This document shows positions 745 to 50,777 of a DNA stretch of 50,947 nt, piece after piece. Made by a program: the position numbers and the translations under genes. The first letter of the stretch is position 1. Every line of letters begins with the position of its first letter. The notes beneath the pieces are model-generated. The model was not told the origin of the DNA and made no database searches. It saw only the letters and a list, made by a program, of their open reading frames with translations. The DNA lies in contig JAPOLH010000002.1 in the NCBI GenBank assembly GCA_029977225.1, positions 1-50,947 on the forward strand, read 5' to 3'. The DNA is from Verrucomicrobiaceae bacterium. GTDB taxonomy: Bacteria; Verrucomicrobiota; Verrucomicrobiia; Verrucomicrobiales; Akkermansiaceae.

Positions 745-2205
745 ATGAACCATCCTCTCGAAGAGTTTCTACTCAACATCAGCCGGCGCCAGTTTTTCGG
801 AAAAATGGCGCAGGGCATCGGCGGCATGGCGCTCGGCTCGATGCTCAACAATAACCTGCATGCGGCCGCACCGAGCCCCTTTGAGCGGGGCTTCCTCGGC
901 TCGCCTCACTTCGCCCCCAAGGCCAAGCGAATCATTTACCTCTTCCAGCACGGCGGCCCATCGCAGATGGACATCTTCGATTACAAGCCGCAGCTCGCAG
1001 ACCAGTTCGACAAGGACCTTCCGAAATCCGTGCGCGGCGACCAGCGCATCACGGGCATGACTTCTGGCCAATCCCGCCTGCCGGTCGCGCCCTCGATTTT
1101 CCAATTCAAAAAATACGACAACAATCAAGACGGGCTCTGGGTTTCCGAGCTCTACCCGCATACCGCAAGCGTCGCGAAGGAACTTTGCGTGGTCCACTCG
1201 GTCTTCACCGAGCAGATCAACCACGAGCCCGGCGTCTCATTCCTACAAAGCGGCCACCAGTTGCCCGGCCGTCCGTCCTTCGGCTCCTGGGTGAGCTACG
1301 GCCTTGGTAGCATGAATGAAAACCTGCCGGCTTTCACTGTGATGATCAGTCAGGGGAGGGGTAACGCGCAGTTCGTCTCCTCGCGTCTGTGGGGTTCCGG
1401 GTTTCTTCCCAGCGAACATCAAGGAATCAACCTCCGCAGTGGAAGCGATCCGGTTCTTTTCTTGAACGATCCCAACGGTATCGATCGCACCGACCGCCGC
1501 CGCATGCTCGATCAGCTCGCACGGCAAAATCACGAGGAGGCCCGCAAAAGCATGGACCCCGAAGTGATCGCCCGCATCGCCCAATACGAAATGGCTTACC
1601 GCATGCAAACCGCTGTGCCGGAGCTCACTGACTTCTCGCAGGAATCTCAAGAGACGCTCGATATGTACGGGCCGAATGTCAAAATCCCGGGGACCTACGC
1701 CTACAACTGCCTCATGGCTCGCCGCCTCGCCGAACGCGGCACCCGCTTCGTGCAACTCTACCACCGCGGTTGGGACCAGCATGGAAACCTGCCTGCCCAA
1801 ATCCGCATGCAGTGTGAAGATACCGACCAGCCGCAGGCAGCTCTGGTCAAGGACCTCAAGCGCCTCGGCATGCTCGACGACACGCTTGTCATTTGGGGCG
1901 GCGAATTCGGCCGCACCACCTACAGCCAAGGTACCCTCACCAAGGACAACTACGGCCGCGACCACCATCCGCGTTGTTTCACGATGTGGTTCGCCGGTGG
2001 TGGCACCAAGCCCGGCATCACCTACGGCAAGACCGACGACTACTGCTACAACATCATCGACAAGCCGATGCATGTACACGACCTCCACGCGACGCTCATG
2101 CACCTCATGGGCATCGATCACCAACGCCTCACCTATCGCTACCAAGGCCGCGACTTCCGTCTCACCGATGTTCACGGGCACGTCGTTCACGACATCCTGG
2201 CGTAA
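745..2205 (+). CDS. DUF1501 family Tat-exported protein
   Basis: A 486-residue protein of the DUF1501 family (sulfatase/alkaline phosphatase fold). The N-terminus carries a twin-arginine signal, ISRRQFFGKMAQG, followed by a hydrophobic stretch, so export by Tat is expected. Family landmarks are AKRIIYLFQHGGPSQMD, a Q-x-NHEPG block, LARRLAERGTRFVQLYHRGWD and the WGGEFGRT / GRDHHP metal-site-like segments. The chosen ATG lies in the context ATCATG with no Shine-Dalgarno and gives a complete Tat signal. It follows the DUF1553 gene by 17 bp and precedes the membrane cytochrome gene by 19 bp, so the three probably form one transcript. A paralogue lies at 36790-38274. DUF1501 proteins pair with DUF1553 proteins throughout Planctomycetes and Verrucomicrobia; their substrate is not established. 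Confidence 0.9.
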   Translation: MNHPLEEFLLNISRRQFFGKMAQGIGGMALGSMLNNNLHAAAPSPFERGFLGSPHFAPKAKRIIYLFQHGGPSQMDIFDYKPQLADQFDKDLPKSVRGDQRITGMTSGQSRLPVAPSIFQFKKYDNNQDGLWVSELYPHTASVAKELCVVHSVFTEQINHEPGVSFLQSGHQLPGRPSFGSWVSYGLGSMNENLPAFTVMISQGRGNAQFVSSRLWGSGFLPSEHQGINLRSGSDPVLFLNDPNGIDRTDRRRMLDQLARQNHEEARKSMDPEVIARIAQYEMAYRMQTAVPELTDFSQESQETLDMYGPNVKIPGTYAYNCLMARRLAERGTRFVQLYHRGWDQHGNLPAQIRMQCEDTDQPQAALVKDLKRLGMLDDTLVIWGGEFGRTTYSQGTLTKDNYGRDHHPRCFTMWFAGGGTKPGITYGKTDDYCYNIIDKPMHVHDLHATLMHLMGIDHQRLTYRYQGRDFRLTDVHGHVVHDILA

Positions 2206-2224
2206 ATCTTCGACCCGCTTTTTT

Positions 2225-4765
2225 ATGACCACCCCCTCCCGCTTTGTGCGGGCAACCCTTGGTTTTGTTTTGGCGGGTTTGGCCACCGCCGCACTGGTGT
2301 TTTTAGGCATTGCGCCGGCACCACCGATCCCCGAGAAATGGATGCTTTTCATCGGGCGTTTCCACCCGCTCATCGTCCACCTTCCCATCGGTTTTCTCGC
2401 TGCGCTGACCGCACTTCAGGTCCTGTATTGGATTGTCCGCTCCGATTTTCGTGAGGCCACGCGCGTGTTACTTTGGCTATGCGCGCTCTCGGCGTTGGCC
2501 GCCACCGCTGTCGGCACCATGCTCACATGGCCGGGTGAGTACAGCGGGGAGCTGCTCTTCAATCACCGCTGGTTTGGCATCGCCACCTCGGCGGTGTGCG
2601 TGTGGATGCTCTTCGCTCATCACTTCTCCGGCCGCTTTGGCAGGGCGCTTTATTCGGGTCTCCTGATGGCATCGCTGGTTCTTGTTTCCATCACCGGTCA
2701 CCACGGTGGATCGCTGACCCACGGCGAAGACTACCTCACCGCCCACCTACCTGTGGTTCTTGGTGGAAAACCCGAGCCGCTTCCCATCGACAAAGGCACC
2801 AAGGAGGATGCTGCGATTTATGCAGCGGCGATCCAGCCGATCATCGAGTCCAAGTGTGTGGAGTGTCACAACCCTGCGAAGAACAATGGAGATCTCCGCA
2901 TGGACACCATGGAGTTGCTCCTTGCCGGTGGCAAACATGGCCCTGCGCTCAAGCCGGGTGACGCCGCTGCGAGCCTCATGATCGAACGAGCCAACCTGCC
3001 GCTCGATCACAAGGAACACATGCCGCCCGCAGGGAAGCCCCAGCTCACCGATTCCGAGCTCGAACTCCTTTCGTGGTGGATCGACCGCGGTGCCAAAGAA
3101 CGCGTACCGCTCGTCGAAGACCTTCCGCCGCCAGCCGCCCTTGCGTTGCTCGAAAAGAACCTCGGCTTTCAAGTCGCCGCCCCCGAAGTGCCGATGCTCA
3201 CATGGGAAGAAGTCGTCAAGGCCGGCGCACCGTTGGCCAAAGTTCCCAATCTTGCGGTGCGCCGTTCTTCGATGGACTCCGCGGCCTTGAATGTCTTCAT
3301 CGCCTCCGATGCCCCAAACCCCGACGCGCTCATCGCCAGCCTCGATCCGATCAAGGCGAATATCGTCCTGCTCGATGCGGGCAAAACCAAAATCTCGGAA
3401 GCCGCGTTCCCTGCCATCGCCGAATTTGCCAACCTTGAGGAACTCCGCCTCCAGGAAACCGACACCGACGACCAGGATGTCGCCAAACTCTCCCCGCTCC
3501 GCAAGCTCCGGAAGATCAACCTCAACAGCACCGAGGTCACCGACCGCTCGGTGGAATTCATTTCCAAATTCCCGAACATCGTCCAACTCGCCGCATGGGA
3601 CACCACCGTCAGCCCCGTGGCCGCCGATACCTTCATCAAGACCCGCTTCCCCGAAAACAAAAAGCGCCGCGTGGAGGAGGAAATCCACGCCCTCGAAAAC
3701 CGCCTCGCCGCGATGAAAGTCGAAGTCCTCGGCATCGACATCCCCGAGCACCCGCTGCCGCCGATGGTCGATGGCACAATCTACTGGGCCCCGCTCGCGG
3801 CCTCCGCCTCGTCGGAATACGACACCAAATGGGCCGTCAAAAACCTCTACGATGGCAGTGTCAAACTCGCCGACATCGGCACGCCCAACAATCAAGGCGC
3901 CGACTACGCGGGCAAGGGGCCTGGACCATTTTATGTGGTCTACGACATGGGCTCTGAAATTGTTTTCTCTAGCCTCCTCTATGCCCAGCGCGGGTTGGCG
4001 GCCGACAAGGCCGGCAAAATCGAAGTCCGCGTCACTAACACCGACCCCGGCCAAGCCTCGAAGAGCATGGCGATCCTCAAACGTCCGGCGGATGCCGTGA
4101 TCGAGCTGAAGCCCAGTGCCCCGAACGACCGCAAACTCGAGCGCTACGGATTACGCAAGGACCTCAAGGGGCGTTTCGTCGTATTCTCCATCAGCGGCCC
4201 GCTAAGCGCCGGCAATATCGGTGGCTATGAGCTCATCCTCGGCCGCTTCCCACTGGCCCGAGAGGAGCTTCTCGCTGCAGTCGCCGCCGACCCGGCCAAA
4301 TACGGCACGCTCATCGGACCGAAGGCCACCGCCTCCGCAAGCAGCAACACACCACACACGCCGCCGGAGGGCCCCGTGAAATTTCTCGACCCCGCCATCA
4401 GCACGATTCCCTTCGCGTTTCATACTGACATCGAAGCGCACCCTTGGGTGAAAATCGCTTTCCCAAACAAAGTCCGCATCGCGGCGATCTCGATCGTCAA
4501 CCGCCGCGAATACATGGAGCGCGCAGAGGGGCTTGAGCTCCAGCGCCTCGCAGACTCGGGCGAATGGGAAACCATTTGGAAATCCGAAAAACCCGAAGAG
4601 TCATGGAATCTCGACCTCACCGGCTTCAAACCCGAAGAGCGCGAAGGCAAGGAGTTTCGCCTGCATGTCGCCGCGGAAAAACCCACCTACCTTCACCTTT
4701 CGAATGCGGCCATCTGGGGCCAGGAACTCCAACCGCCAACACCACCACCTTCGCCCAAAAAATAA
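2225..4765 (+). CDS. Membrane protein: DUF2231-like TM domain, planctomycete cytochrome C domain, leucine-rich repeats, galactose-binding-like C-terminus
   Basis: An 846-residue protein. I chose the ATG at 2225 because it begins a clean membrane segment just after the DUF1501 stop; the frame stays open far upstream only as a shadow of that gene. Residues 1-170 form several transmembrane helices with the FHPLIVHLPIGFLAAL motif of DUF2231-like domains. Around residues 210-290 there is a planctomycete-type cytochrome C domain with heme motif CVECH and the DHKEHMPPAGKPQL block. Residues about 370-470 resemble leucine-rich repeats (LEELRLQETD). The last 300 residues contain two discoidin-like segments with WAVKNLYDG and VKFLDPAIS. 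Similar TM-cytochrome-LRR proteins accompany DUF1553/DUF1501 pairs; 32344-33909 is a shorter paralogue that lacks the C-terminal part. A role in surface electron transfer or glycan binding is inference. Confidence 0.85.
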   Translation: MTTPSRFVRATLGFVLAGLATAALVFLGIAPAPPIPEKWMLFIGRFHPLIVHLPIGFLAALTALQVLYWIVRSDFREATRVLLWLCALSALAATAVGTMLTWPGEYSGELLFNHRWFGIATSAVCVWMLFAHHFSGRFGRALYSGLLMASLVLVSITGHHGGSLTHGEDYLTAHLPVVLGGKPEPLPIDKGTKEDAAIYAAAIQPIIESKCVECHNPAKNNGDLRMDTMELLLAGGKHGPALKPGDAAASLMIERANLPLDHKEHMPPAGKPQLTDSELELLSWWIDRGAKERVPLVEDLPPPAALALLEKNLGFQVAAPEVPMLTWEEVVKAGAPLAKVPNLAVRRSSMDSAALNVFIASDAPNPDALIASLDPIKANIVLLDAGKTKISEAAFPAIAEFANLEELRLQETDTDDQDVAKLSPLRKLRKINLNSTEVTDRSVEFISKFPNIVQLAAWDTTVSPVAADTFIKTRFPENKKRRVEEEIHALENRLAAMKVEVLGIDIPEHPLPPMVDGTIYWAPLAASASSEYDTKWAVKNLYDGSVKLADIGTPNNQGADYAGKGPGPFYVVYDMGSEIVFSSLLYAQRGLAADKAGKIEVRVTNTDPGQASKSMAILKRPADAVIELKPSAPNDRKLERYGLRKDLKGRFVVFSISGPLSAGNIGGYELILGRFPLAREELLAAVAADPAKYGTLIGPKATASASSNTPHTPPEGPVKFLDPAISTIPFAFHTDIEAHPWVKIAFPNKVRIAAISIVNRREYMERAEGLELQRLADSGEWETIWKSEKPEESWNLDLTGFKPEEREGKEFRLHVAAEKPTYLHLSNAAIWGQELQPPTPPPSPKK

Positions 4766-4781
4766 CATGATCTAAGCCACC

Positions 4782-4838
4782 ATGTTACCAGAGGGCACCC
4801 ATGCTGCCATCACGCTCGGAGGGGCTGCCAATCAGTAA
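4782..4838 (+). pseudogene. Relic of a sulfatase 3' end
   Basis: A frame of only 18 codons, ending at the TAA at 4836-4838, reads EGTHAAITLGGAANQ at its end. The intact sulfatase at 43132-45015 ends in NAAITLGGTHVE, so the ITLGG terminus is shared. Immediately upstream, at 4767, ATGATC followed by a stop resembles the ATGAT(C/T)AA start of both intact sulfatases. The simplest reading is a sulfatase gene reduced by internal deletion to a start fragment and its last codons. The match is short, so the call rests mainly on its position next to the two clearer relics that follow. Confidence 0.5.
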
Positions 4839-4852
4839 GCTGCCGCGTCGAC

Positions 4853-4939
4853 CGCAAACTCATCGTCGGGTTCGCGATAGATGCCGCTACCCCAGTGCAC
4901 ATTTTTTTTAGAGATGCCAAACCAACCACCTCATTATGA
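4853..4939 (+). pseudogene. Relic of the 3' end of a LamG-family gene (46450-49116 type)
   Basis: In the frame ending at TGA 4937-4939 the translation contains RKLIVGFAIDAATPVHIFF and then AKPTTSL. The intact protein encoded at 46450-49116 ends RRELVVWLEIDATTPVEISI and then GAKPSNP. Residue order, spacing and distance to the stop codon all agree, so this is the tail of a related gene whose body is gone. The stop overlaps the ATG of the next relic (ATGA), a coupling typical of genes within an operon. Confidence 0.72.
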
Positions 4940-5062
4940 AAACAGCATACTCTCGCTATCGAAAAGGGCAGGGGACCGATCTTGTGGTGTGGGTGAAAAT
5001 CTGAGGCGACAAGAAAACCTCATTCAAAATTCGAAACGCCCCAAGCCAACGACGAGGACTAA
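4936..5062 (+). pseudogene. Relic of a LamG-family gene (29002-31112 type): start plus 3' end
   Basis: An ATG at 4936 begins MKT, as in the intact gene at 29002. After about 12 codons the frame enters GTDLVVWVK, identical to the tail of the 29002-31112 protein, and then hits TGA at 5002. At the DNA level, 4974-5062 aligns with 31028-31112 almost to the stop codon (gtggtgtgggtgaaaa, gcgacaagaaa, tcattcaaaat and ggacta are shared), with small indels and many substitutions. This is therefore a decayed copy that kept its start and 3' end and lost roughly 2 kb between them. The GH29 gene begins 4 bp further on. Confidence 0.8.
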
Positions 5063-5066
5063 AGTC

Positions 5067-6550
5067 ATGATCAAAAATATTCCGCAGATGGCTTTTTCCA
5101 TCGCTGCCACACTGCCCGCACTGCTCGCGCTTTTTTGCCAACCCGCCATTGCCGAGACGGTGCCAAGCGCGGACAACCCCGAGCAGGCCCACGCCGACTC
5201 GTTCAAAAAGCGCTTTGCCGCAGACCTGCGCCATCCACCGGAGTCCGAGGCGCGGCTGAACAAGTGGTTCCGCAATGACAAACTCGGGGTCTTCATCCAC
5301 TTTGGCGCGTATTCCACCTTGGCTGGAAAATACAAGGGCAACTCCGACGGCCCACCCTATGCCGAGTGGGCGATGATGACCCACCGCATTCCATTGAAGG
5401 AATATCGCGAGGAGGTGGTTTCCCAATTCAACCCGCAGGAGTTCAATGCCGATGAGTGGGCTCGGACTTTCAAGGAAACCGGCATGAAGTATGTGGTGAT
5501 AACTTCCAAGCACCACGATGGCTTCGCGCTCTTCAAATCGGGTGTCACGAATTACAATGTTGTCGATGGCTCGCCCTTCAAGCGAGACATCATTAAAGAG
5601 CTCGAGCAGGCCTGCCACCGCCACGGACTGAAGTTCGGCGTGTATTACTCGCAAGCTTTCGATTGGAGTGAGCCGGGCGCGCCATTTCCCAACACGGAAG
5701 CCATCCGGCAAATCCACCCCGAGCTTCCCGCCGACTTCGTGGCGAACAATAAAACCATGGATGAATACCTCGCCAAGAAAGCGTATCCGCAGGTCGAGGA
5801 GTTGATGAAAAACTACAAAATCGACCTAATTTGGTTCGACACTCCGGCATCGATGAAGCCCGAGCAAGGCAGGCGTCTCTTAGAAATCGTGCGCAAAAAC
5901 AACCCCGATTGCCTCGTCAATTCCCGCGACTCCTTTACTGGCCAAAGGAGGAATGGAAGTTCGGGCAACTCGAGTTTTTCGACTATGTCTCGCTCGAGGA
6001 CAAAGAGGTGCCTCCCCACAAACTTTCCCTCACCACCGAATCGCCCGACAGCGTGAGCACCTCTTATGGCTACAAGGCCCACGGCCCGGTGCGCTACCAC
6101 AGCCTGCAGGAAATCATCCACCGCTTCGTCCACACCGTTTGCAGCGGCGGGAACTACCTCTTGAATTTCGGTCCGATGGGCAACGGCCAGGTCGACCCCA
6201 AGGCGCTCGAGCTTTTCCAAGGCGTCGCCGCGTGGATCAAGGACAACGGCGAATCGATCTACGGCACGCAGGCCAACCCGCTTCCAGGTCGCCCGTCGTG
6301 GGGCGATGCGAACCTCTCGAAGGACGGAAAAACCCTCTACCTGCATGTGATGCAGTGGCCCGCCGACGGCAAACTCACCGTCGAAGGCGTGACCCCGAAA
6401 GTCGCTGCGGTTTCCTTCCTCGCGCCCAAAGCGGCCGACCAGAAAATCGCATTCGAGCAGAAAAGCCAGAAGCTGTCGCTCACCCTGCCTGGTGCTGCCT
6501 CCGACACGAACGCGACCGTTGTGAAAATCACATTGGCGAAACCCTTTTGA
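5067..6550 (+). pseudogene. GH29 alpha-L-fucosidase, frameshifted near position 5935
   Basis: Encodes a secreted GH29 alpha-L-fucosidase, which hydrolyses terminal alpha-L-fucose from glycans. The start at 5067 gives a standard signal peptide (MIKNIPQMAFSIAATLPALL, cleavage after AIA). GH29 landmarks include WFRNDKLGVFIHFGAYS, ITSKHHDGF and KFGVYYSQAFDW. The predicted nucleophile is Asp258 in LIWFDTP, which is the usual family position. After CLVNSRDSF the frame breaks. The family sequence resumes in another frame with EEWKFGQLEFFDYV and continues through SGGNYLLNFGPMGNG to the stop at 6550. The shift lies within about 5931-5940 (tcctttactg). Both halves are otherwise well conserved, so this is either a very recent one-base mutation or a sequencing error. 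The gene directly follows the sulfatase and LamG relics. Confidence 0.85.
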
Positions 6551-6604: not shown

Positions 6605-6778
6605 TGTCTCCTAACGCCAAACGTCGATTATGAAGTAGACAAAGGCTTTTCGGAATTCAAGATCCCACGCGAATTTGCCACCTATCGCTATGGCTCGAGG
6701 CGCAATCATTACCAGGAGCGAGACAACGAAACTCCAAAACATTCCCGCATGCGTTGCCCATTCACATCAACAATTCTC
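6605..6778 (+). other. Possible decayed coding remnant upstream of the GH36-like gene
   Basis: Between the stop of the frameshifted fucosidase and the next signal peptide there is an open stretch after the TGA at 6602 with a protein-like composition (VDYEVDKGFSEFKIPREF, then ATYRYGSRRNHYQERD). It has no obvious start of its own and runs in frame into the GH36-like gene. I cannot assign it to a family. It could be the tail of a deleted gene, as seen at 4782-5062 and 15017-15262, or ordinary leader sequence. Confidence 0.25.
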
Positions 6779-29001: not shown

Positions 29002-31112
29002 ATGAAAACACACACGATATCTCTTGCCGCCCTTTGCACGCTCGGCGCACTGGCGTTTGCCCAAGTGCCGGATCAATCGAAGCCGATGGCCTCGTGGTCA
29101 TTCGAGCAACTCTTGGGCAGTGATCCCGCCAGGAAAATGGTTCATGAGCCGACCGCCAAATTGCAAGATCTGGTCGATGGTTTTCCGACGCTTGCGCAAG
29201 GGGTCGTCGGCAATGCCTTGAAGCTCGATGGGTTGGCTACACGGCTCATCCGTCCCGCCGACAAGGCTCCAGCGCTAGGCCAAGCATTTTCCTTCGAAGC
29301 CTGGATCGATTGCAGGAATACCCCTGGAACTGGGCGGCGATCGCGAATCAGGAGCGCGACCACAAAGAGGGTTGGTTCTTTGGCATCGGTGGTGACGGTC
29401 GCCTTGGCCTTCATGTTGCCAAGGACGGAAAATGGATCGAGTGCAACTCGAGGTCAAAGCTTCCGCTTCTCAAGTGGACGCATGTTGCTGGCAGTTATGA
29501 TCCGGCGCTTGGACTCAAGGTTTTCATCAACGGAAAACTCGAAACTGAAATCAAAACCACCGGCCCGATCACTTTGGCGCAGAGTGTGGATTTGTGGGTG
29601 GGCTTGAGCCATACCAAGACCTTTCCAATTCGCACCGAGCGTGCCTACAGCGCTTCGTTCAAATCGCCGATGCTCCTCGACGGACTTCTCGATGAGGTGA
29701 AGATCCACAGCCGTGCTCTCACCGATGCCGATGCCGCGCAGGCCTTTGCCGCTGTGCAACCAAAGGTCGCGCAGCCGCTGCAATTTCGTCGCATGCCCTC
29801 CGGCCCGGATGGCCCAGGCGAGTTTGGCGCGGTCTACACACGGCTCAACTACGCACCGGAATGGGAGCGGCACTGGAGAGTGGGAGACCACTGCGACATT
29901 CTCGTGCGCTTCGACAACTCGCCCAGTCGCATTGTGTTCTGGCGCGGGACGAATTACGGCGCCTGCTATGTCAGCGAAAACGGCCTGTGGGCTGGTGATC
30001 AGAGCCTCGAGGCAAACAGCAATACCACCGGTTGCTACGAACACATGGCCGACAAGAAGTGCTCATTCTCCACAGCCAAGATCCTTGAAAGCAACGACGC
30101 ACGCGCGGTCATCCACGCCCGCTACGCCTCGGTTGGCATCGACGGAAAATTCCTCGACCCTGATCCGCTCACCGGCTGGGGGCTTTGGTCCGACGAATAT
30201 TTCACGATCTATCCGGACGGTGTGGCTGTGCGCCATGTGGTCGCCAAAAATCATTTCAATGGCGGCGGAGAATGGCAGGAAACCCTGCTGTACAACCAGC
30301 CCGGCATGCGACCGGAGGACACGGTGGATCTGAAGGCTCTCACTCTCGCCAACCAAAAGGGCGAAACCCACACCTACTCGTGGGAGAATGGACCGCCAGT
30401 GAAGTTCAACAACCCCAAAGGTCCGCGCAATTTCCAACACCCCGCGCAGGCAAGCATCCAACTCGTCAACTTCCGTTCAAAATGGAAGCCGTTCATCGTG
30501 TATGAGCCGGATGTCACGCTCATCCCGCTCGGCATCGGACCGAGCTCGGATTATTCGAAGTTCCCCTGCTGGAACCACTGGCCGGTCGCCCAGTTGCCCA
30601 ATGATGGTCGCAAAGCGATCGTCTCCGACAAGCCATCGCACTTTTCACTCTGCACCTCGCGCGGAGTGATTCGCCGCAATCCCGAGGGCAGCGAATCGGT
30701 GTATCTCTACGGCATGACCGATCAGTCGATTGATAGCCTCGTCCCGCTCTCGAGGTCGTGGAACTCCGCCCCAAAGGCAAGCATCGTGAGCAGCGGCATC
30801 GAAGGTGGGTCCTATGACAAAAACCAGCGTGCCTATCTCTTCACCACAAAGGACACCAAAACCGGTACGCTCGAGTTCAGCCTCGATGCCAGCCCCGACT
30901 CACCGATCCACAATCCCGCCTTCGTCGTGAAAAACTGGGGCAAGCGCCCGGCCAAAATCACAATCGACGGCAAGAAAATCCCCCGTGGCAAAGACTTCCG
31001 CTGCGGTCATCAAACAACCGCCGATGGCACCGACCTCGTGGTGTGGGTGAAAACCAAGAGCGACAAGAAATCTTCATTCAAAATCGAAGCATCACCAACC
31101 AAAGCGGACTAG
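29002..31112 (+). pseudogene. LamG-domain protein of uncharacterised family, frameshifted near 29308
   Basis: Encodes about 700 residues with a signal peptide (MKTHTISLAALCTLGALAFA). An N-terminal LamG/concanavalin-like domain (about 25-240) is followed by a long C-terminal region shared with the protein at 46450-49116. The frame breaks inside LamG: FSFEAWI in the first frame is followed in the second frame by QEYPWNWAAIANQ, where the paralogue has VEAWVAIAAYPWNWTP without a break. One missing base at about 29305-29312 (atcgattg) explains it. Downstream the sequence is intact and conserved: FDNSPSRIVFWRG, SWENGPP, FPCWNHWPVAQLPNDGR and TDLVVWVKTKSDKKS to the stop. A recent mutation or a sequencing error are both possible. 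The function of the family is not known to me; see the linked finding. Confidence 0.8.
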
Positions 31113-40809: not shown

Positions 40810-40990
40810 AACTTTTGTCGCGCAGACCGCCAAATAGTAACAAGCCGCCCGACAAATCGCCTGCCAAAGCCCCCACCGACAAAAAGAAAATCCCAGCCGA
40901 AAAAACTTCCGCTTCAAGCTCCACCTATTTATCAATTACCCCGAATTTGAATTCTCCGTTTACCAACAAGCCCCAGCACCCCCAACAACC

Positions 40991-42034
40991 ATGATGACCA
41001 CCAAAACCATCCTTGCCGGTCTCGCGATCGGTCTCGCCATTACGCATTCCGTCACTGCCCATCCAGAAGGGCATAAGAAATCAGAGAAAGCCGTCGTTCC
41101 TGCCCCATCCCTTAAAGATGGCGCGCTCACCGGCCAAGGGGACTGGGCTTATCGCACCGTGCTCAACTGGGGCCGCATTCCAGGGCAGGAGTACATCGGC
41201 TCAACTCATGGCGGCGTGGCGGTCGACAAATCTGGCAAAATTTATGTCTCCACCGATGGACCGAATGGTGTGATCGTTTACGAAGCCGATGGTACCTTTG
41301 TCCGCAGTTGGGGTGAGCCCTCACGCCTTTTCCACAGCCTTGCGATGCGCGAAGAGAACGGAAAGGAATACCTTTACGCCGCTGGTAAAAACCGCGTTTG
41401 CAAACTCGATCTCGACGGCAAGATCGTCCTCCAACTCGACAGCAAACCCGGCAGCGACGACTTCGGTTGGACCAATGCCACCGCGGTCGATGCAGCTCCG
41501 GATGGTACCTTCTTCGTCGCCGACGGCTACGGCACCAATCTCATCTTCAAGTACTCGAAGGACGGAAAATACCTCGGCAAGTTCGGTGCCCCGGGCGCGC
41601 AACCAGGCCAGTTCAGATCCTGCCACGGCCTCACTGTCGATGCCCGCAATCCCGAGCAACCGCTGCTCATCGTCTGCGACCGTGAGAACCTCCGCATCCA
41701 ACTCCTGGACTTCAACGGCAAGGTCATCAACATCCCGATCACCGGTCTGCGTCGCCCTTGCGCCACCGCCATCCGTGGCAATCTCGTGCTCGTCGCCGAA
41801 CTCGCCGGCCGCGCCGTGCTTCTCGACAAGGATTACAAAATGCTCAGTGTGCTCGGCGACAACCCCGTCGAGTCCCAGCGCGCGAACTTCGGCGTGCCAC
41901 CGCAAGACTGGAAAGAAGGCGTCTTCACCGCTCCTCACGGCTGCGCGATCGATCATAAGGGCGACCTCTACATCCAGGATTGGAACCAGTGGGGCCGAAT
42001 CACCAAACTGGTCAAAGAAAGCAAATCCAAGTGA
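40991..42034 (+). CDS. Exported NHL-repeat beta-propeller protein
   Basis: A 347-residue protein with a signal peptide (MTTKTILAGLAIGLAITHSV, cleavage near TAHP). It is followed by repeated NHL-type blades: GGVAVDKSGKIYVSTDG, NATAVDAAPDGTFFVADGY, FRSCHGLTVDARNPEQP, and the closing GCAIDHKGDLYIQDWNQWG. Such propellers act as binding scaffolds or as lactonase-like enzymes; no specific reaction can be read. It has its own 180-bp upstream region without a gene and is followed by a strong GC-rich hairpin, so it is probably a separate unit. Confidence 0.82.
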   Translation: MMTTKTILAGLAIGLAITHSVTAHPEGHKKSEKAVVPAPSLKDGALTGQGDWAYRTVLNWGRIPGQEYIGSTHGGVAVDKSGKIYVSTDGPNGVIVYEADGTFVRSWGEPSRLFHSLAMREENGKEYLYAAGKNRVCKLDLDGKIVLQLDSKPGSDDFGWTNATAVDAAPDGTFFVADGYGTNLIFKYSKDGKYLGKFGAPGAQPGQFRSCHGLTVDARNPEQPLLIVCDRENLRIQLLDFNGKVINIPITGLRRPCATAIRGNLVLVAELAGRAVLLDKDYKMLSVLGDNPVESQRANFGVPPQDWKEGVFTAPHGCAIDHKGDLYIQDWNQWGRITKLVKESKSK

Positions 42035-42382: not shown

Positions 42383-42598
42383 AGCGTGCCCCGCAAAAGT
42401 TGGACAATCAACAAGCACGAAAGCCACGCGACAGCGTTGATTCCAGAGTGGCCAAACAGCAGCGGGCGCGGTCAAGCTGGCGACAGCTTGCCGGGGTCTG
42501 GGGCGGGTAGCCCCAGGCTGAGTTGCAGCCAGAAAGGAGCGCTTCTATGAACCAACCACCCGAAGACATCAAACGCTGGACCGCCCGCCGCAAGGCCG
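42383..42598 (+). mobile_element. 5' fragment of an IS3-family-like insertion sequence
   Basis: The left part (gtgccccgcaaaagttggac, near 42386-42405) resembles the terminal inverted repeats of IS3/IS150-group elements, which carry a CAAAAGTTGGACA-type end. Two hairpins follow (42474-42490, 7-bp arms caagctg/cagcttg; 42498-42516, 7-bp arms ctggggc/gccccag). Then comes a strong Shine-Dalgarno (aaaggag) and an ATG at 42547 that starts MNQPPEDIKRWTARRKA, the typical N-terminus of an IS orfA helix-turn-helix protein. The orfA reading breaks off after 17 codons at about 42598, where unrelated sequence from a minus-strand gene begins. The rest of the element is gone. Confidence 0.6.
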
Positions 42599-43067
42599 AC
42601 CCACCAATCCCACACTTGTCTGTTGCTCAGGTCGTAGGCGCGTAGAGTATTGCGAATCATTTTGGTTTTTTCATTGCTGCCGGTGAGAAAGGCTCCGGGC
42701 ATCTTCTCGATCTCGCTGTTGGCCATGTAGGTGCCGTAGTGCACGATGACATTGCGATAGTATAAAATCTTGGCCGAGGGATTGACCTTCTTCACGGCCT
42801 TCGCCGCCGCGAGGGTGCCCTCCTCGGTGGATTGGAAGGCTTTGAATCCGGTCGTTTTTTCAAACGTCACCAAGGGAAACGACGCCAAGTAGTTGATTTC
42901 GGCATCTGTAAACTTTTTGGCTTTGCGGATATGCATGTACTGCGGCACGCGGTCCCACGAGAATGCAGGCAAGCGGTCGGATGCCCGGTCCGGTGATTGC
43001 TCTACAGCATGGGATGTAAAAGCGAGCGCCGAATAAACGGCAAGATAACAGACGGAAATCTGATCAT
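42599..43067 (-). pseudogene. Truncated and frameshifted hypothetical glycosyl-hydrolase-like protein
   Basis: On the minus strand an ATG at 43067 starts MIRFPSVIL. After a frame change near 43040-43050 a signal-peptide-like SALAFTSHAVEQ leads into SDRLPAFSWDRVPQYMHI, FTDAEINYLASFPLVTFEKT and SAKILYYRNVIVHYGTYMA. This looks like the N-terminal third of a TIM-barrel hypothetical glycosyl hydrolase of the GHL15 kind; the family call is tentative. At QVWDWWVG the gene meets the IS remnant, and the frame runs on into unrelated sequence to a stop at 42472. Truncation by the IS-associated deletion and the frameshift make it non-functional. It lies 64 bp downstream of the sulfatase gene and was probably the last gene of that operon. 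Confidence 0.65.
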
Positions 43068-43131: not shown

Positions 43132-45015
43132 TTATTCGACATGGGTTCCTCCCAGAGTGATGGCGGCGTTGGCGTAAGTGTTGCCCTTATCGGGTGCCTG
43201 AACCGGCTTGGGATGGCTCACGAGGAAATTGTTTTCATCAATCAAATTGATGTAAGCGTGGGTGGCCTCCGGGGGAAGCGTGGCTTTGACCACGCCGTTC
43301 TCGATCTCGCCAAATGCACGGAACCACTCCTCGGTCTTTTCGCCGGGGTGAATCGCGTAGATCACATCCGCGCGGACCACGCGTGCGCCGTTTTCCTGAA
43401 AGCTTGCCGTGACCGTCTGGCCGTCCACCTTATGCCCGGTGACTGTCGGAACATGCTTCTGATTGGGAAGTGGAAATTTGCAGTCAGGATTCCAGTAGGG
43501 AAGGCTGGCTTTCATTTCGGTGAGGATTTCGCTAAGGCGGGCATTCATCGCGGCGGTTTTTTCCGGCATTTCGCCGGCAAGGTTTTTTGCCTCCTCGATG
43601 TCCACGCGCGCGGTCTTGCCGTTCTTGGTTTCGGCCAGCCTGTAGAGTTCAAGTGGCGGCATATTTCTACTATGAATATCGTAGTTTCGGATCAGCTTGA
43701 AATCCGCCGTGCGAATTGTGCTTTGGAAGGATGTGGAGCCACCATGCGGGTAATGCCAAACCATCTCCGTGCGGGGCTTGCCGTGTTGATCGCGCACGAG
43801 CGAGGGATCACTCACCGCTCCGGTAAGCAGCGGAAGGAGATCGGCGCCGTCGAGGTTTTTTCCCTTCGGCTTCGCGATGCCGGACATCGATAGAATGGTG
43901 GGGTAAAAATCGAGGCCGTTGACCATCACATCGCTCTCTTTGCCGGCGGATATCCCTGGGCCGGCGATGAGGAACGGCACGCGCACGCCGCCTTCCTTCG
44001 CCGACATTTTCCCTTTGTCGAGCGGAGCGTTGTCGGTGATCACCTCCTTGCCCGCCCCCTCCATGCCCCCATTGTCGGAGGTGAAGAAAATGTAGGTGTT
44101 GTCGATGAGCTTGTGGCCGGGATTGCGCGGGTCGTCGGTGATTTCGAGGAATTCAACGAGTTGGCCGACATAGTGGTCGAGCGTTTCCACCATGGCGCAG
44201 TAGTAGGGATTTTTCTGGCCCTCGAGCGTCCACTCGCCGGGGTCGGTCGGGAAATCCACGCCGAACTTCTTGCAGTATTTTTCCAGGAGCGGCTTGCTGC
44301 GAGAATAGATCGGGGTGTGGACGAGCCAGGTCGCGTAGTAGAGGAAGAATGGCTTGGCCTTGTGGGTCTCCATGAACTCCAGCGCGGCGGTGGTGACTGG
44401 GTCGGTGGGGAAGCCATCGGCATCGAGGCGGTAGCGATCGCCCGGCTGATCGGTCGCAAAATCTTGGATGCGGTTTTTCATGCCGGACTGCACCCCGCGG
44501 GCATCGAAGCCACTGCGGTGCGAGGTGAAGTCGAACCCTTGATCCAAGGGGCCGGGAAACGAGTGGTGATCCTTGGCCATGTGCCATTTTCCGGTGTGAC
44601 CGGTGGCGTAGCCGTGCTGACGGAGAATCTTGGCGAGCGTGAGTTCGTTTTCCGGCATGCGGCCGCTGTACCACGGGGTGATCAGCCTATCATTTTTGTG
44701 TGCAGCAGGCGGATCGCCACCCACAACATGAGTTTTTTGGGCCCGGGCGGGGTGGTTCCCGCTCATGATCGCGCAACGGCTCGGAGCGCAGGTCGGCGCG
44801 GGCGAGTAGCCGCTGCGGAAGAGGACGCCGCGCTTGGCCAGCGCGTCGAGGTTCGGCGTTTCCATCGGGCTCGGCGCGTCGATGTCATAGCATTTTACGT
44901 CCTGCCAACCCAGGTCGTCCACAAGCATGACAACGATGTTTGGAGCGGGTGCGGCGTGGGCAGGAGTGGCCAGCGCGATGCCGAGAGAGAGAAGAGCGAG
45001 TATGTTTTTAATCAT
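43132..45015 (-). CDS. Secreted type I sulfatase with C-terminal beta extension
   Basis: A 627-residue S1-family sulfatase. The signal peptide MIKNILALLSLGIALATPAHA precedes NIVVMLVDDLGWQD, which supplies metal-binding Asp residues. The formylglycine motif is Cys76-Ala-Pro-Ser-Arg80, so an anaerobic or FGE-type maturase is needed. TGHTGKWHMAKD and FTSDNGGMEG are the remaining signature segments. After about residue 530 a small beta domain (ADVIYAIHPGEKTEEWFRAF) ends in NAAITLGGTHVE. A similar ITLGG tail occurs as a relic at 4782-4838, and a related beta domain occurs in the hydrolase at 23904-25670. It removes sulfate from a carbohydrate, probably a fucose-rich glycan given its GH29 neighbour. 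Its promoter region contains an element shared with the second sulfatase. Confidence 0.93.
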   Translation of the reverse strand: MIKNILALLSLGIALATPAHAAPAPNIVVMLVDDLGWQDVKCYDIDAPSPMETPNLDALAKRGVLFRSGYSPAPTCAPSRCAIMSGNHPARAQKTHVVGGDPPAAHKNDRLITPWYSGRMPENELTLAKILRQHGYATGHTGKWHMAKDHHSFPGPLDQGFDFTSHRSGFDARGVQSGMKNRIQDFATDQPGDRYRLDADGFPTDPVTTAALEFMETHKAKPFFLYYATWLVHTPIYSRSKPLLEKYCKKFGVDFPTDPGEWTLEGQKNPYYCAMVETLDHYVGQLVEFLEITDDPRNPGHKLIDNTYIFFTSDNGGMEGAGKEVITDNAPLDKGKMSAKEGGVRVPFLIAGPGISAGKESDVMVNGLDFYPTILSMSGIAKPKGKNLDGADLLPLLTGAVSDPSLVRDQHGKPRTEMVWHYPHGGSTSFQSTIRTADFKLIRNYDIHSRNMPPLELYRLAETKNGKTARVDIEEAKNLAGEMPEKTAAMNARLSEILTEMKASLPYWNPDCKFPLPNQKHVPTVTGHKVDGQTVTASFQENGARVVRADVIYAIHPGEKTEEWFRAFGEIENGVVKATLPPEATHAYINLIDENNFLVSHPKPVQAPDKGNTYANAAITLGGTHVE

Positions 45016-45071
45016 ATCTTATCTAGGTAAACGATGGGTGCAGAGGAGCTTGGATTTCCAAATGATGCGGG

Positions 45072-45131
45072 TTTTTTTCATTCAATACTGCATGGGTCGA
45101 ATCGTTGCGCGGAATAGAAAAGTATTGCCGC
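45072..45131 (-). promoter_or_regulatory. Upstream element shared by the two sulfatase genes (copy 1)
   Basis: This stretch between GH29 and the sulfatase at 43132-45015 aligns with 50718-50777, at a similar distance upstream of the other sulfatase. The core at 45098-45112, cgaatcgttgcgcgg, is identical in both, and the flanks (ttttttc, gcatg, ttaccgc/attgccgc) are similar. Conservation outside genes that differ from each other suggests a common regulator binding site or promoter. Confidence 0.55.
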
Positions 45132-45161: not shown

Positions 45162-46343
45162 TCATTGCCCGGCTCCGTCGATCGCGGGTTCGCTCTGTGG
45201 CTTAGCTTGCTTTTTGATGACTCCGGGAACAGCCGTGACCTTTGGTGTTTTTTTGTGAATGGGTGTCGCTTTCAACAACTCGGCCGTTTGCTTCAGGATG
45301 GCATACGCTTCGGGCTGAACCCGGCCATTTCCATCCGGCCCGACATTCAAGAGGAGGTTGCCACCCTTTTCGTTGATGTCCTTGAGCTTGTTATAAATCG
45401 TTTGGGCGTCCTTCCAGTTGTTGTCGTTCTTCTTGTAACCCCAGGACTTGTTCATCGTGTAACACCCTTCCCAATGCTTGGGAAAAGCGTTCATGAAGTG
45501 TTCTTGTTCTTGGGTCACAAAATCCAATTCATAGCCATCACGCTTGGCCACCCGGTTGTTGACGATGATATGGGGGCTTGCCTCCCGAATGGCGTTGTAG
45601 AGCTCGATGCCATCCTGCATCGTCCACCAGTTTGCCCAGTCTCCATCAAACCAGAGCACGGCTGGATCGTATTTACGGATCAATTCCAAGACTTGGTTCT
45701 TTTGGTAATCGACATATTCCTGCTTTCGGTTGTCCACGATGATGGTTAACCCCGACCATTCCTTTTGGCCAAGTTCCGAAGGACGCTTCTGGGTCGGGTG
45801 GTTCCAGTCGATGATGCTGTAATAAATCCCGAATTTGATCCCGTGCTTGTTGCAGGCTTGGCGGAGTTCCTCAAGAATATCGCGCCCTTGGAATGGCGTA
45901 CTGGCGACATCGAAATCGGTGTACTGGCTGTCCCAAAGGCAGAATCCTTCGTGGTGCTTGGAGGTGATCACCAGATAGTTCATCCCGGCCTCTTTTGCGG
46001 ATCGGACGATCAAATCGGCGTCGAAATCGGCTGGATTGAACGACTTGGTGAGTTGCGCGTATTTTTTACGGTCGACATTGGCATTGCCTTGGATCCATTC
46101 GGCATATCCGTCAAAGGGTTTGCCCTCCCAAACGCCACCAACCATAGAATAAAGGCCGAAGTGGATAAACATTCCATACGGTGAGTCCACAAACCATTGC
46201 ATGCGAGAGTTGTAGGCTTCAAGGGACTCCTCCTTTGGCACCACTTTGGCCACCTCTTCCTTGGCAAAAGCAACCGGAAGAACTGCCAAGAGACTGGCTG
46301 CGATGATGTTGTGAAAAGTTATCTGTGTTCTATGTATTTTCAT
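45162..46343 (-). CDS. Secreted GH29 alpha-L-fucosidase
   Basis: A 393-residue alpha-L-fucosidase without accessory domains. The signal peptide runs to AFA-KEE. GH29 landmarks are WFVDSPYGMFIHFGLYSMVG, ITSKHHEGFCLWDS, KFGIYYSIIDWNHPTQ and the predicted nucleophile Asp233 in AVLWFDGDW. NKSWGYKKNDNNW and GGNLLLNVGPDGNG follow. It ends with a lysine- and proline-containing tail (KKTPKVTAVPGVIKKQ). It is the third fucosidase in the window and differs clearly from the other two in this tail and in its WNHPTQKRP loop. It has a probable own promoter with a very short leader, 106 bp beyond the LamG gene. Confidence 0.94.
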   Translation of the reverse strand: MKIHRTQITFHNIIAASLLAVLPVAFAKEEVAKVVPKEESLEAYNSRMQWFVDSPYGMFIHFGLYSMVGGVWEGKPFDGYAEWIQGNANVDRKKYAQLTKSFNPADFDADLIVRSAKEAGMNYLVITSKHHEGFCLWDSQYTDFDVASTPFQGRDILEELRQACNKHGIKFGIYYSIIDWNHPTQKRPSELGQKEWSGLTIIVDNRKQEYVDYQKNQVLELIRKYDPAVLWFDGDWANWWTMQDGIELYNAIREASPHIIVNNRVAKRDGYELDFVTQEQEHFMNAFPKHWEGCYTMNKSWGYKKNDNNWKDAQTIYNKLKDINEKGGNLLLNVGPDGNGRVQPEAYAILKQTAELLKATPIHKKTPKVTAVPGVIKKQAKPQSEPAIDGAGQ

Positions 46344-46449: not shown

Positions 46450-49116
46450 TCATGGATTGCTTGGTTTGGCGCCTTTGATGGAAATTTCCACTGGTGTGGT
46501 GGCATCGATCTCGAGCCAGACGACGAGCTCGCGGCGTCCGTTTGTGTCTAGGACTGTTCCCTGCCGGAGATCACGCGCCTTGGTGCCCTTGACGGAAACC
46601 TTCGCGTTTCCGGAGTGGCCCCAGTTTTTTACGGTGAGGCTAAGGTTAGCGACTGGGTGCTCGGGGGAGGCGTCGATAGAAACGGCCATCGTGTCCTTCT
46701 CGGCGATCAGCGGATATTCGCGGCTGGCGGGTTCGTAGGGGAGGGCCTTGCAGCCACTCTTTGCGGTGATCGGCGGGGCTTTCAACCACGACTTCGCGAG
46801 CGGCACCAACTCGGCGGGCTTGAGCTTCGTCATGCCTTCCATGAGGAGCCTTTCCTGATAGGGCCGATCACCGTCTTGCTGCTTGTGGTTTGGCAGAAAG
46901 ACATGGGTGAGTGAGCAGTGCGAGGTGCGATCGGGGTGCTTGGCATTTCGTCCATCGGAGGGAAGTTGGCCGATGGGCCAATGGTTCCACCATGGGAAGA
47001 CGGATACTTCGGTGACTTCGCCAGAATAGACATTTCCATTGGTAAATTCCCCGATCGTGAATGGGCTGTAGTCGCCCTTGAAGTGGACGACATGGATTTT
47101 TGTGTCGCGGTAATTGACGCCTTTGGGTGGGCCGCTTTCCCAAGAGTAATCGCGGGTTTCGCCGCTGAGCGTGGCCAGCGAGAGCGCGGGGTTGGTTTCA
47201 ATCACCTGCTCGGGATGCTGGTCGGGACCAAAGATGACCATGCCTTCCTGCCATTCGTGGTTGTAGGGGCCGGTGCTCCAGAGGCGCATGCGCTTCGTGG
47301 CCACGCCGTCGGGATAGATCGTGTAGGTCCAGTCGCTCCAATCGCTCCAACCGGTCTGCTCGTCGTAGTTGGCCTTCACGCGAAACACATCAATGAGCGG
47401 GAAGCGCCACTGGACGACGACACGGGCTGGGGTGTTTTCGAGGATCTTCACATGGTTTGAGAAGGCTTCCTTGTCGGACATCGGCTCCATGCAGCCCCGT
47501 CCGCCGGAGCGGTTCCATGTCTCGTTGAATTCGTTGCTATACCAATGGCCTTTTTCGTTCACGAGCATGGGGATGAATCCCATGCCCCGCCAAAACACAA
47601 AACGGCTCGGGTTTTTATCGAACTCCACGACCACATCGGGGTGCGGACCAAAGCGGAAGAGACCATCCCAGGTGTCATAGAATTCCAGGTTGGTGAAATG
47701 GGCGCCGAACTTGCCGGTGCTTGGGCCGGTGGGCAGAACGCGGGACGGGATGTCGGGCGAAGCGGGTGCGCCATCCGCGAGTTGGAGGATTCTGCAGGAG
47801 GACGCCACCTGAGTGGTTGTCAGCGGTGAATCGTAAATCCGAACCTCGTCGATAAGGCCATCGAACGAATACTGCGAGGCGAATCGTTGCCTGACATTAT
47901 ACATCTGCGGCAGGGGTTTCCCTTGGCCGATTTGCAGATACCCCGTGGGTTGATCGATGCCCTCTTTGGGGGCGGGTTGATCGGCGGCCAGCCGCCCGTC
48001 GATGTAAAGACGGAGCCGTCCCGCAACTTTGTCATAGACGCCGGAGAGGTGATACCAGCGGCGGCGTTCGAGGAACTGACCTGATTGGACCCGGACGGGT
48101 TTGCCACCGGATTGGATGCCGAATGCCACATGGCCGTCCGCATCGATGCCGAGATAGCAGTTTTCGTTTTCGCCGAGTTGGACGACGGGCGTCCAATTCC
48201 AAGGATAGGCAGCGATGGCCACCCATGCTTCGACGGTGAGTCCATTGGCGCCGAGCGGAACATTCTCAACCGGCACGCGCAGCGCGGTGTTGTACCCATC
48301 AAAAGCGAGTGCCGTGCCCGACATGCCCTTTCTCCAGTAAGCCATTGGGCCCTTGATGGTGCTCGATGCACCCGTAAGCGATTCGGCGGTCGTGTCTCCC
48401 ACACCTTCGTCGAATTTCCACCACCTGATTGGTGCAACAACGGTGCGCTTCACAAGCGGAGACCCAGCAACGGGTGGTTTGGGGGCGGAGCGAACGGGCG
48501 GTTTTTCGCCGAGGGCCTTAATGCCGTTCGAGGAGAGTTGGAGCGTGAAGGTGTTAAGATTTTGAGGATCGGTCCAGTCCTCCCGCTTGGGGCTTGCTGC
48601 GCGAAAAGTGCGCTCCACTCGACCGTTCGGAGTGACGATGAAATACTCGTCGACAAACTTGTCCGAAGCCACGAGGTCGAGTTGGGTTCCCGGCTCAGGC
48701 GTCCTCGGGTAATAAGGCAAGTTGGTTTTCGTGGGATTGGGATTCCCGGGTGAGAATTTCGGAAGGTAGCGCCAGTGGATGACCACGCGCTGCGGCGAAC
48801 TTTCGATGATCCTCGCCACCGAGTAGGTGTTGACCTTGTCGGGGCGTGTTGCGGGACCATCGCCGCTGCGGGGGGTGAGTTCCTGGAACGGATGGCGGTT
48901 TTTACCCGCCTCCCAGACTGGCAGATAACTGGTGGCGCGGGAGAAAACGATGCGCCCTGATTCTCCCGTGATTCCTCGCACAACGATGTCCGCCTCGTCG
49001 CTGGTGCGGGAGAATTTTTCGAACTCTTCGCCGGAATCAACCTTGGTGTAATAAGCGCCGAATTCTGCGCCGTGCGCGGTGACACAGAAGGCGAGAAATA
49101 GAAGAAATGGTTTCAT
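46450..49116 (-). CDS. Secreted LamG-containing protein of an uncharacterised family, with internal duplication
   Basis: An 888-residue protein with a signal peptide (MKPFLLFLAFCVTAHG). Residues about 18-190 form a beta-rich module starting FGAYYTKVD. A LamG/concanavalin-like domain follows at about 230-445 (WWKFDEGVGDTT, VEAWVAIAAYPWNW, FDGLIDEVRIYDSPLT). From about 469 the first module recurs (FGAHFTNLEFYD, DVVVEFDKNPSRFVFWRG) and extends into a long C-terminal region with conserved SWESGPP, FPWWNHWPIGQLPSDGR near residue 710 and ELVVWLEIDATTPVE. The LamG and C-terminal parts match 29002-31112. It lies 24 bp after a sulfatase gene and 106 bp before a fucosidase. The function is unknown; a binding protein or a new type of glycan-active enzyme are both possible. 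Confidence 0.75.
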   Translation of the reverse strand: MKPFLLFLAFCVTAHGAEFGAYYTKVDSGEEFEKFSRTSDEADIVVRGITGESGRIVFSRATSYLPVWEAGKNRHPFQELTPRSGDGPATRPDKVNTYSVARIIESSPQRVVIHWRYLPKFSPGNPNPTKTNLPYYPRTPEPGTQLDLVASDKFVDEYFIVTPNGRVERTFRAASPKREDWTDPQNLNTFTLQLSSNGIKALGEKPPVRSAPKPPVAGSPLVKRTVVAPIRWWKFDEGVGDTTAESLTGASSTIKGPMAYWRKGMSGTALAFDGYNTALRVPVENVPLGANGLTVEAWVAIAAYPWNWTPVVQLGENENCYLGIDADGHVAFGIQSGGKPVRVQSGQFLERRRWYHLSGVYDKVAGRLRLYIDGRLAADQPAPKEGIDQPTGYLQIGQGKPLPQMYNVRQRFASQYSFDGLIDEVRIYDSPLTTTQVASSCRILQLADGAPASPDIPSRVLPTGPSTGKFGAHFTNLEFYDTWDGLFRFGPHPDVVVEFDKNPSRFVFWRGMGFIPMLVNEKGHWYSNEFNETWNRSGGRGCMEPMSDKEAFSNHVKILENTPARVVVQWRFPLIDVFRVKANYDEQTGWSDWSDWTYTIYPDGVATKRMRLWSTGPYNHEWQEGMVIFGPDQHPEQVIETNPALSLATLSGETRDYSWESGPPKGVNYRDTKIHVVHFKGDYSPFTIGEFTNGNVYSGEVTEVSVFPWWNHWPIGQLPSDGRNAKHPDRTSHCSLTHVFLPNHKQQDGDRPYQERLLMEGMTKLKPAELVPLAKSWLKAPPITAKSGCKALPYEPASREYPLIAEKDTMAVSIDASPEHPVANLSLTVKNWGHSGNAKVSVKGTKARDLRQGTVLDTNGRRELVVWLEIDATTPVEISIKGAKPSNP

Positions 49117-49140: not shown

Positions 49141-50643
49141 TCAAGGTTCCTTTCTCCAGTCGTGGTCTGGGTTGTAGTCGGGATTGACGGTCGCCATTTT
49201 TGATCCGCTGTCTTTACGCCACTGCTCGAGCATGCGGGAGAGTTTGGCGACGAGTTCGGGTTTTTCGGTGGCGAGGTCGCGGGATTCCCCGATGTCTTCG
49301 CGCAGCTTGTAGAGTTCCTTTTTTCCGGTTTCGAAAACTTCAATGAGTTTGTAATCCCCGGCGCGGATGGCTCCGGCGGGCCCCATGGTGTTGATGTGGT
49401 GGTAGTGGGGCATGTGGAAGTAGAGGGCTTCGCGGGCCAACTTGGATGTCTTGCCCTCGAGGAGCGGGGCGAGATCGACGCCGTCCACATGTTGGCTGGG
49501 CATCAAGGGCAAGCCGGCGAGCCCGAGAATGGTGGGGAAGAGGTCCGTGCTCACGACGGGCTCGGCAAGACGCTGGCCGGTTTTGATTTTGGAAGGATAG
49601 CTAATGATTAGCGGCACGCGGATGCCGCCCTCGTAGAGCCAGGCCTTGCCGGCGCGGAGGGGGAGATTGCAGGCCGGGTAGTTCGTGCCGCTGCCTGTGG
49701 AGAGGCCGCCATTGTCGGAGGAGAAGACAACGATCGTGTTATCCTTCAGCTCGAGGCGGTCGAGTTCCGCCATGAGACGGCCGACATTCTCATCGAGGCT
49801 TTCGACCATGGCCGCATAGGCGGGATTGTCCTGGCGGGAATGGGTGAGGCTTTGATGCTCGGGAATCAAGGGGGGCTTGGATTTGTCGAGGCCGAGGGAT
49901 TTGGCTTTGGCGGTGTATTTTTCCAGCTTGTCCTTACGGGGTTCGATCGGGGTGTGGACGGTGTAGTACCAGAAATTCAAAAAAAACGGCTTGTCGGCGT
50001 GGTCCTTGATGAAGCCGATGGCTTTGGTGGTGAGGGCATCCGTGAGGTAGTCGCCGGGTTTGCCGTCCTCCATGTTTGGGACATCGGTGACGGGGTTTTG
50101 TTCGCTTTTGTAGGGGAAATGGTAGGAACCGGGCTGCCCGGCATTCTGCCCGCCGATGTTGATGTCGAAGCCGTGCTTTTGCGGAAAGTGGTTGGTTCCT
50201 TTCTCGCCGTTGCCTTGCAAGTGCCACTTGCCGACATGGGCGGTGGCGTATCCGGTCGAGCGCAGCGCCTCGGCGAGGGTAGTGTCCTCGGGCGCGATGT
50301 TTCCGACCACTGGGGGCGGATCAAGCTTGTAGGCTTTGCCGTAGGGGCCCTTGACGCCGGCAAGGTAGCTCATGCCGATGCGGCTGGGGTATTTTCCCGA
50401 CAGGATGCTCGCCCGGGTCGGGGAGCAGCTCGGGTTGGCCGCGTAGGCGTCGGTGAACAACGCTCCGCTCTTGGCGAGGGCATCGATATTCGGCGTCTCG
50501 TGAAAGGTGGCGCCGTTGCACCCGAGATCAGCCCAGCCGAGGTCGTCCACCAGGATCAGCACGACATTCGGCGGTGCTGCGGCTTGGACGGTAATGGCCA
50601 AGGCGATGTGGAGAGCGAGAAGGGCCAGAGTGCGTTTGATCAT
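49141..50643 (-). CDS. Secreted type I sulfatase
   Basis: A 500-residue S1-family sulfatase, first gene of the minus-strand cluster. The signal peptide MIKRTLALLALHIALAITVQ is followed by NVVLILVDDLGWADLGCNG. The formylglycine motif is Cys73-Ser-Pro-Thr-Arg77, with Thr at the position that is Ser in the other sulfatase; both fit the C-x-P/A-x-R rule. TAHVGKWHLQGNG and VFSSDNGGLSTG complete the active site. It resembles N-acetylgalactosamine-6-sulfatase-like bacterial enzymes in length and ends HDWRKEP without a beta extension. The start has the context AAGATATG, as in the other sulfatase. It removes sulfate esters from a carbohydrate; position specificity is not readable. Confidence 0.94.
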   Translation of the reverse strand: MIKRTLALLALHIALAITVQAAAPPNVVLILVDDLGWADLGCNGATFHETPNIDALAKSGALFTDAYAANPSCSPTRASILSGKYPSRIGMSYLAGVKGPYGKAYKLDPPPVVGNIAPEDTTLAEALRSTGYATAHVGKWHLQGNGEKGTNHFPQKHGFDINIGGQNAGQPGSYHFPYKSEQNPVTDVPNMEDGKPGDYLTDALTTKAIGFIKDHADKPFFLNFWYYTVHTPIEPRKDKLEKYTAKAKSLGLDKSKPPLIPEHQSLTHSRQDNPAYAAMVESLDENVGRLMAELDRLELKDNTIVVFSSDNGGLSTGSGTNYPACNLPLRAGKAWLYEGGIRVPLIISYPSKIKTGQRLAEPVVSTDLFPTILGLAGLPLMPSQHVDGVDLAPLLEGKTSKLAREALYFHMPHYHHINTMGPAGAIRAGDYKLIEVFETGKKELYKLREDIGESRDLATEKPELVAKLSRMLEQWRKDSGSKMATVNPDYNPDHDWRKEP

Positions 50644-50717
50644 ATCTTTTTTTTAGATGAACGATGAACTCGGCTAGGTTCGGATTTCATTTCCAAGTAG
50701 CGAGGGGCGAGGGGTTG

Positions 50718-50777
50718 TTTTTTCGTTAAACACCGCATGAGGCGAATCGTTGCGCGGCATGGAAAAAATTACCGCCC
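50718..50777 (-). promoter_or_regulatory. Upstream element shared by the two sulfatase genes (copy 2)
   Basis: Matches 45072-45131, with the identical core cgaatcgttgcgcgg at 50743-50757. It also contains CGCATGAGG followed by GAATC (50734-50747), which occurs on the minus strand in the araC/rhaA intergenic region (10793-10780) with one base less between the blocks. It is likely an operator or promoter of the minus-strand sulfatase operon. Confidence 0.55.

Follow-up and report, generated by a model that had tools for sequence, protein, structure and literature searches.

A short spacer before an alpha-L-fucosidase gene of a Verrucomicrobiaceae bacterium as the probable deletion scar of a polysaccharide-degradation operon

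Spacers in the variable segments of decaying Rickettsia genomes carry short fragments of neighbouring genes, identified by synteny with relatives; deletions of whole blocks, as well as small ones that struck neighbouring genes independently, have been described there (PMC2374718). In Haloquadratum walsbyi, deletions are found at short direct repeats (PMC3119063). Sulfated-polysaccharide gene sets directed at fucose and rhamnose are known from Verrucomicrobiota (PMC8857213). The locus described here resembles the Rickettsia remnants (PMC2374718) in that fragments of several adjacent genes lie in a spacer and are recognised by synteny, but the survivors are mostly gene junctions, the genes concerned degrade polysaccharides, and there is no sign of an intracellular lifestyle. 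It shares with H. walsbyi (PMC3119063) large internal deletions, short gene ends left behind and possibly short repeats at breakpoints, although the role of repeats is here suggested by a single 10-mer common to genes of relatives. Like the Verrucomicrobiota sets (PMC8857213), it brings together GH29, sulfatase and rhamnose catabolism genes; unlike them, the scar would stand for a portion of such a cluster that has been lost, and for no new pathway. The process is of a known kind, and what is unusual is the bias towards keeping gene junctions.

The stretch of DNA analysed (50,947 nt, hereafter the window) is contig 90 in a draft assembly of 1.75 Mb and 167 contigs. Its genes for the degradation of fucose/rhamnose polysaccharides encode GH29, sulfatases, RhaA, RhaT, a class II aldolase, LamG-domain proteins and PSD1/DUF1501/PSCyt proteins. 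An intact minus-strand cluster has the order SulfA-LamGc-GH29c-SulfB. At the other end of the window, between PSCytA, whose orthologues in three genomes (G401, G403 and G407) are 82-83% identical, and the alpha-L-fucosidase gene GH29a, we observed a row of gene remnants on one strand: an NHL start, a SulfB tail, a LamG-c tail with a LamG-b start, a LamG-b tail and an SGNH1 start, followed by GH29a lacking its own start and then by a hyp25758 tail (Table 1). The apparent spacer of ~350 bases is made up of what remains of the starts and ends of at least five enzyme genes that were lost. Each lost gene has left only 17-120 nt, and each remnant either beats shuffled sequence or has a fixed-register probability of ~1e-7 or lower. 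Positions 4767-5120 and 6626-6745 are in our view very probably the scar left by deletions in an operon for the breakdown of a sulfated methyl-pentose polysaccharide, whose genes would have been lost stepwise while neighbouring ones were in use.

Table 1. Gene remnants and genes of the window discussed in the text.
Feature	Position	Strand	Description and evidence
PSCytA	about 2200-4765	+	Intact, upstream of row; planctomycete cytochrome c / DUF2231 / F5/8C protein; start approximate; Pfam
Remnant 1, NHL-repeat gene start	4767-4790	+	17/20 identical from ATG in fixed register to NHL start of L165
Remnant 2, SulfB-type sulfatase 3' end, two pieces	4788-4804, 4803-4845	+	Stop TAA 4836-4838
Remnant 3, LamG-c tail	4852-4939	+	Ends PTTSL*; stop TGA 4937-4939 overlaps next start (ATGA, 4936-4939)
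Remnant 4a, LamG-b start codon and first signal-peptide codons	4936-4960 (end approximate)	+	ATGA overlap placed as in L096
Remnant 4b, LamG-b tail	4970-5062	+	53/61 identical, then continuing, to L099; natural stop 5060-5062
Remnant 5, SGNH1 (SGNH/GDSL hydrolase) start	5067-~5110	+	Match to L099; SGNH1 by Pfam
GH29a, alpha-L-fucosidase gene	5067-6550	+	
GH29a, body	5121-6550	+	Pfam; alignment blocks with relatives
Remnant 6, hyp25758-type gene tail	6626-6745	+	71% over 119 nt to L102; 73% over 88 nt to L070
LamGb, LamG-domain protein gene	29002-31112		
NHL, NHL-repeat gene	40991-42034		
SulfB, sulfatase	43132-45015	-	
GH29c, GH29	45162-46343	-	
LamGc, LamG-domain protein	46450-49116	-	
SulfA, sulfatase	49141-50643	-	

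An initial annotation of this DNA had noticed three gene tails before GH29a, and all three are present where it placed them: they are the 3' ends of sulfatase, LamG-c and LamG-b genes and lie beyond dinucleotide shuffles, none of 1000 reaching their scores except in the comparison with the window's own SulfB. The row is longer than these three, with the NHL start inside the span annotated and the SGNH start and hyp25758 tail outside it. Positions 4803-4838 align, with the stop codon, to the final 36 nt of SulfB-type sulfatase genes (84% over 38 nt to G060 and 82% over 39 nt to L059; E 2e-5; 0/1000 dinucleotide-preserving shuffles), whereas the match to the window's SulfB is weak (11/1000 shuffles reach the score). 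The two sulfatase pieces are identical to G060 at 15/17 and 35/44 positions, with ~90 bp gone between them in frame; for the first piece, 0/2000 shuffles reach the score. We had favoured an origin of the whole of 4767-4806 from internal SulfB sequence, but 4767-4786 was reassigned to the NHL start given that PSCytA and an NHL gene are adjacent in L165. The NHL piece and the first of the SulfB pieces measure 17-24 nt and compete in part for the same bases, and the third codon of the NHL remnant is now TAA.

The sulfatase tail and its stop were correctly recognised in the initial annotation, but the matching gene is SulfB and not SulfA, whose tail matches the row no better than shuffled sequence (178/500). 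The same holds for the GH29c tail (247/500), and GH29a is only ~38% identical to GH29c, which argues against the proposal that the row is a second copy of the minus-strand cluster. Since SulfB is the last gene of that cluster, the position of the sulfatase differs and the order of the cluster is not repeated.

Both LamG tails have counterparts within the window. Positions 4852-4928 match the end of LamGc (46534-46458; 74% over 77 nt, E 1e-8) and 4972-5035 that of LamGb (31026-31088; 83% over 64 nt, E 2e-12) when the window is compared with itself by BLASTN, with 0/1000 dinucleotide-preserving shuffles reaching either score. In L096 the LamG-c remnant is matched at 68% over 92 nt with an identical ATGA overlap. 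An almost gapless match of 139 nt to L099 (82%) runs continuously from the LamG-b tail across a spacer of 4 nt into the SGNH1 start (4970-5108), a segment that is also 82% identical to G400 (E 1e-32). Two changes disable the LamG-b remnant: a premature TGA at 5002-5004 and the insertion of 1 nt near 5030. The LamGb gene of the window is itself one base short at 29308-29309 relative to L059, giving a frameshift near its N terminus. Two further candidates were discarded: a match of L174 to 4923-4961 is the start of an unrelated gene with a similar signal peptide, and matches of L005 and L006 to 4739-4770 are unrelated sequences that have a CACCACC-rich run in common.

Intact pairs of neighbours were found on contigs of Terrimicrobiaceae/Spartobacteria metagenome genomes. 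An NHL-repeat gene lies directly 3' of PSCytA in L165 and L168. In L096, LamGc ends in PTTNL with a TGA overlapping the LamGb ATG, as PTTSL does at the same ATGA in the window. L099 has LamGb followed by SGNH1 and a second SGNH gene (SGNH2), a gene of the latter type lies directly upstream of GH29a in L060, and a hyp25758-type gene lies downstream of GH29a in L061 and L070. These five neighbour pairs are on different contigs; the whole intact row was not found in one genome among those examined, and the adjacencies NHL-SulfB and SulfB-LamGc, intact in none of the genomes looked at, are seen only in the relic. The same scar gave only partial matches elsewhere, both in the 98 genomes nearest to the window's genome and in 388 around G397, and a search of plasmids gave no match. 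The intact pairs support the view of the initial annotation that the row is what deletions left of a larger gene cluster, most starts and stops having been spared. The former operon would have read about [NHL]-[sulfatase]-LamGc-LamGb-SGNH-(SGNH)-GH29-hyp.

It is very unlikely that the row is instead a patchwork of short 3'-end copies of the window's own genes, pasted into the spacer by gene conversion or template switching. Two of the tails do match genes in the same window, but the first relic and the LamGb/SGNH1 junction match best in other genomes, the window has no gene of the SGNH1 type, and whole junctions (stop, spacer and next start) are retained in the order seen in relatives.

GH29a appears to have taken over part of a lost neighbour. 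It resembles its relatives only from 5121-5141 onwards, and its present start, together with the first half of the signal peptide, was therefore most likely supplied by SGNH1. This would make the GH29a signal peptide a hybrid in which the SGNH1 start is fused in frame to GH29, and this capture of a start, with half of a signal peptide taken from a deleted neighbour, would be a small example of gene 5'-end swapping. At 5928-5929, GH29a has two extra bases compared with three relatives, which break the frame. Downstream of this point, differences in GH29a are still mostly in third codon positions; judged by this codon-position bias, the two-base change is recent or an assembly error. Behind GH29a, the hyp25758 remnant is also supported by the peptide match DYEVDKGFSEF / NYEVDKGFSEF.

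How the genes were lost is suggested by what was left. Of the fusions, four are readable (NHL-SulfB, one within SulfB, LamGb start-tail and SGNH1-GH29a), and all four are in frame, for which the chance is 1/81. At least three of four islands lie on gene junctions, with p about 1e-4 when islands as large as those observed are placed at random; both calculations are post hoc. Together, the sparing of junctions and the in-frame fusions suggest stepwise loss with neighbours in use. At least six separate deletions, roughly gene by gene, would have been needed, and ~10 kb would have been lost, as estimated from the sizes of intact genes. While the neighbours, at least GH29a, were still used, deletions that damaged the start or stop of an adjacent gene, or that broke the coupling of translation, would have been selected against, and breakpoints would thereby have been held within gene bodies and in frame. 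Short repeats may have aided the deletions: the 10-mer CAAAGCCACC is common to the NHL start of L165 and the SulfB 3' region of L059/G403. The constraint would since have lapsed, as suggested by the later stops and frameshift of the mini-ORFs and the two-base insertion in GH29a.

The same scar could have arisen by purely neutral decay with unconstrained breakpoints, the sparing of junctions being luck. Deletion of pseudogenes without selection is common in bacteria, for example in Rickettsia (PMC2374718), and a further point against constraint is the frameshift in GH29a, the very gene presumed to have been selected; the frameshift may, however, be of recent date or due to misassembly. The retention of junctions and the in-frame fusions, post hoc as they are, argue the other way, and we regard neutral decay as rather unlikely. 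The loss of single genes stepwise while neighbours were used is suggested as the simplest account, with luck as a less likely one. Shrinkage of an operon under translational constraint, in which genes are lost singly through in-frame deletions, the junctions (start, stop and overlap) are kept and spacers come to index the lost genes, is a tentative proposal that we hold to be possible but doubtful; if true, it may be a general signature, so far unrecognised, in bacterial spacers. If the junction-sparing, in-frame pattern proved general, it would offer a means of separating plain neutral decay from loss that proceeds stepwise under selection. At this locus, a 350-base spacer can be read as a list of lost genes, and the content of a former polysaccharide-degradation operon can be inferred from it.

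GH29a is 88-92% identical to the GH29 of Terrimicrobiaceae/Spartobacteria metagenome genomes. No close GH29a was found in the window's own genus (best 56%) or, at E 1e-110, among 387 genomes sampled from its order. In the ribosomal protein S3 region, the genome is ~68% identical to the GH29a relatives, versus 88-96% within the genus. Since the kin of GH29a are in another lineage, from which the S3 region separates the genome, the cluster appears either to have been transferred horizontally between lineages or to lie on a misbinned contig. Tetranucleotide correlation is 0.965 with the genome's own contigs and 0.953 with G397, and does not discriminate between the two. An assembly or binning artefact that joined unrelated pieces in a metagenome contig could draw on this position of the contig's nearest relatives outside the lineage of the genus, on the 167 contigs of the draft and on the single frameshifts in GH29a and LamG-b. 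As a source of the row itself, however, it is very improbable: the pieces are 15-30% off every source seen and have their own stop and frameshift, and so are not chimeric copies of assembled genes, and the flanking genes, PSCytA and GH29a, are normal and spaced as in an operon. A present role of the row in regulating GH29a, whether as a leader or through short coupled frames, could explain the kept ATGA overlap and in-frame mini-ORFs but is highly unlikely, as the mini-ORFs now have early stops, the stretch has no Rfam match at gathering thresholds and no terminator-like site, and its sole promoter-like match is weak and on the other strand.

A few other regions of the window also showed similarities. 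At 40883-40915, a short match (88%) to the LamG-b gene of L062 may be a further remnant or chance. Between NHL and SulfB, 42590-42980 is 85% identical to G399 (L131 7152-7542), where it is also close to SulfB; this segment has a weak GHL15 match on the minus strand and is possibly a gene fragment. The 5' regions of both sulfatase genes, including upstream sequence, are 69% alike (44905-45131 versus 50533-50775).
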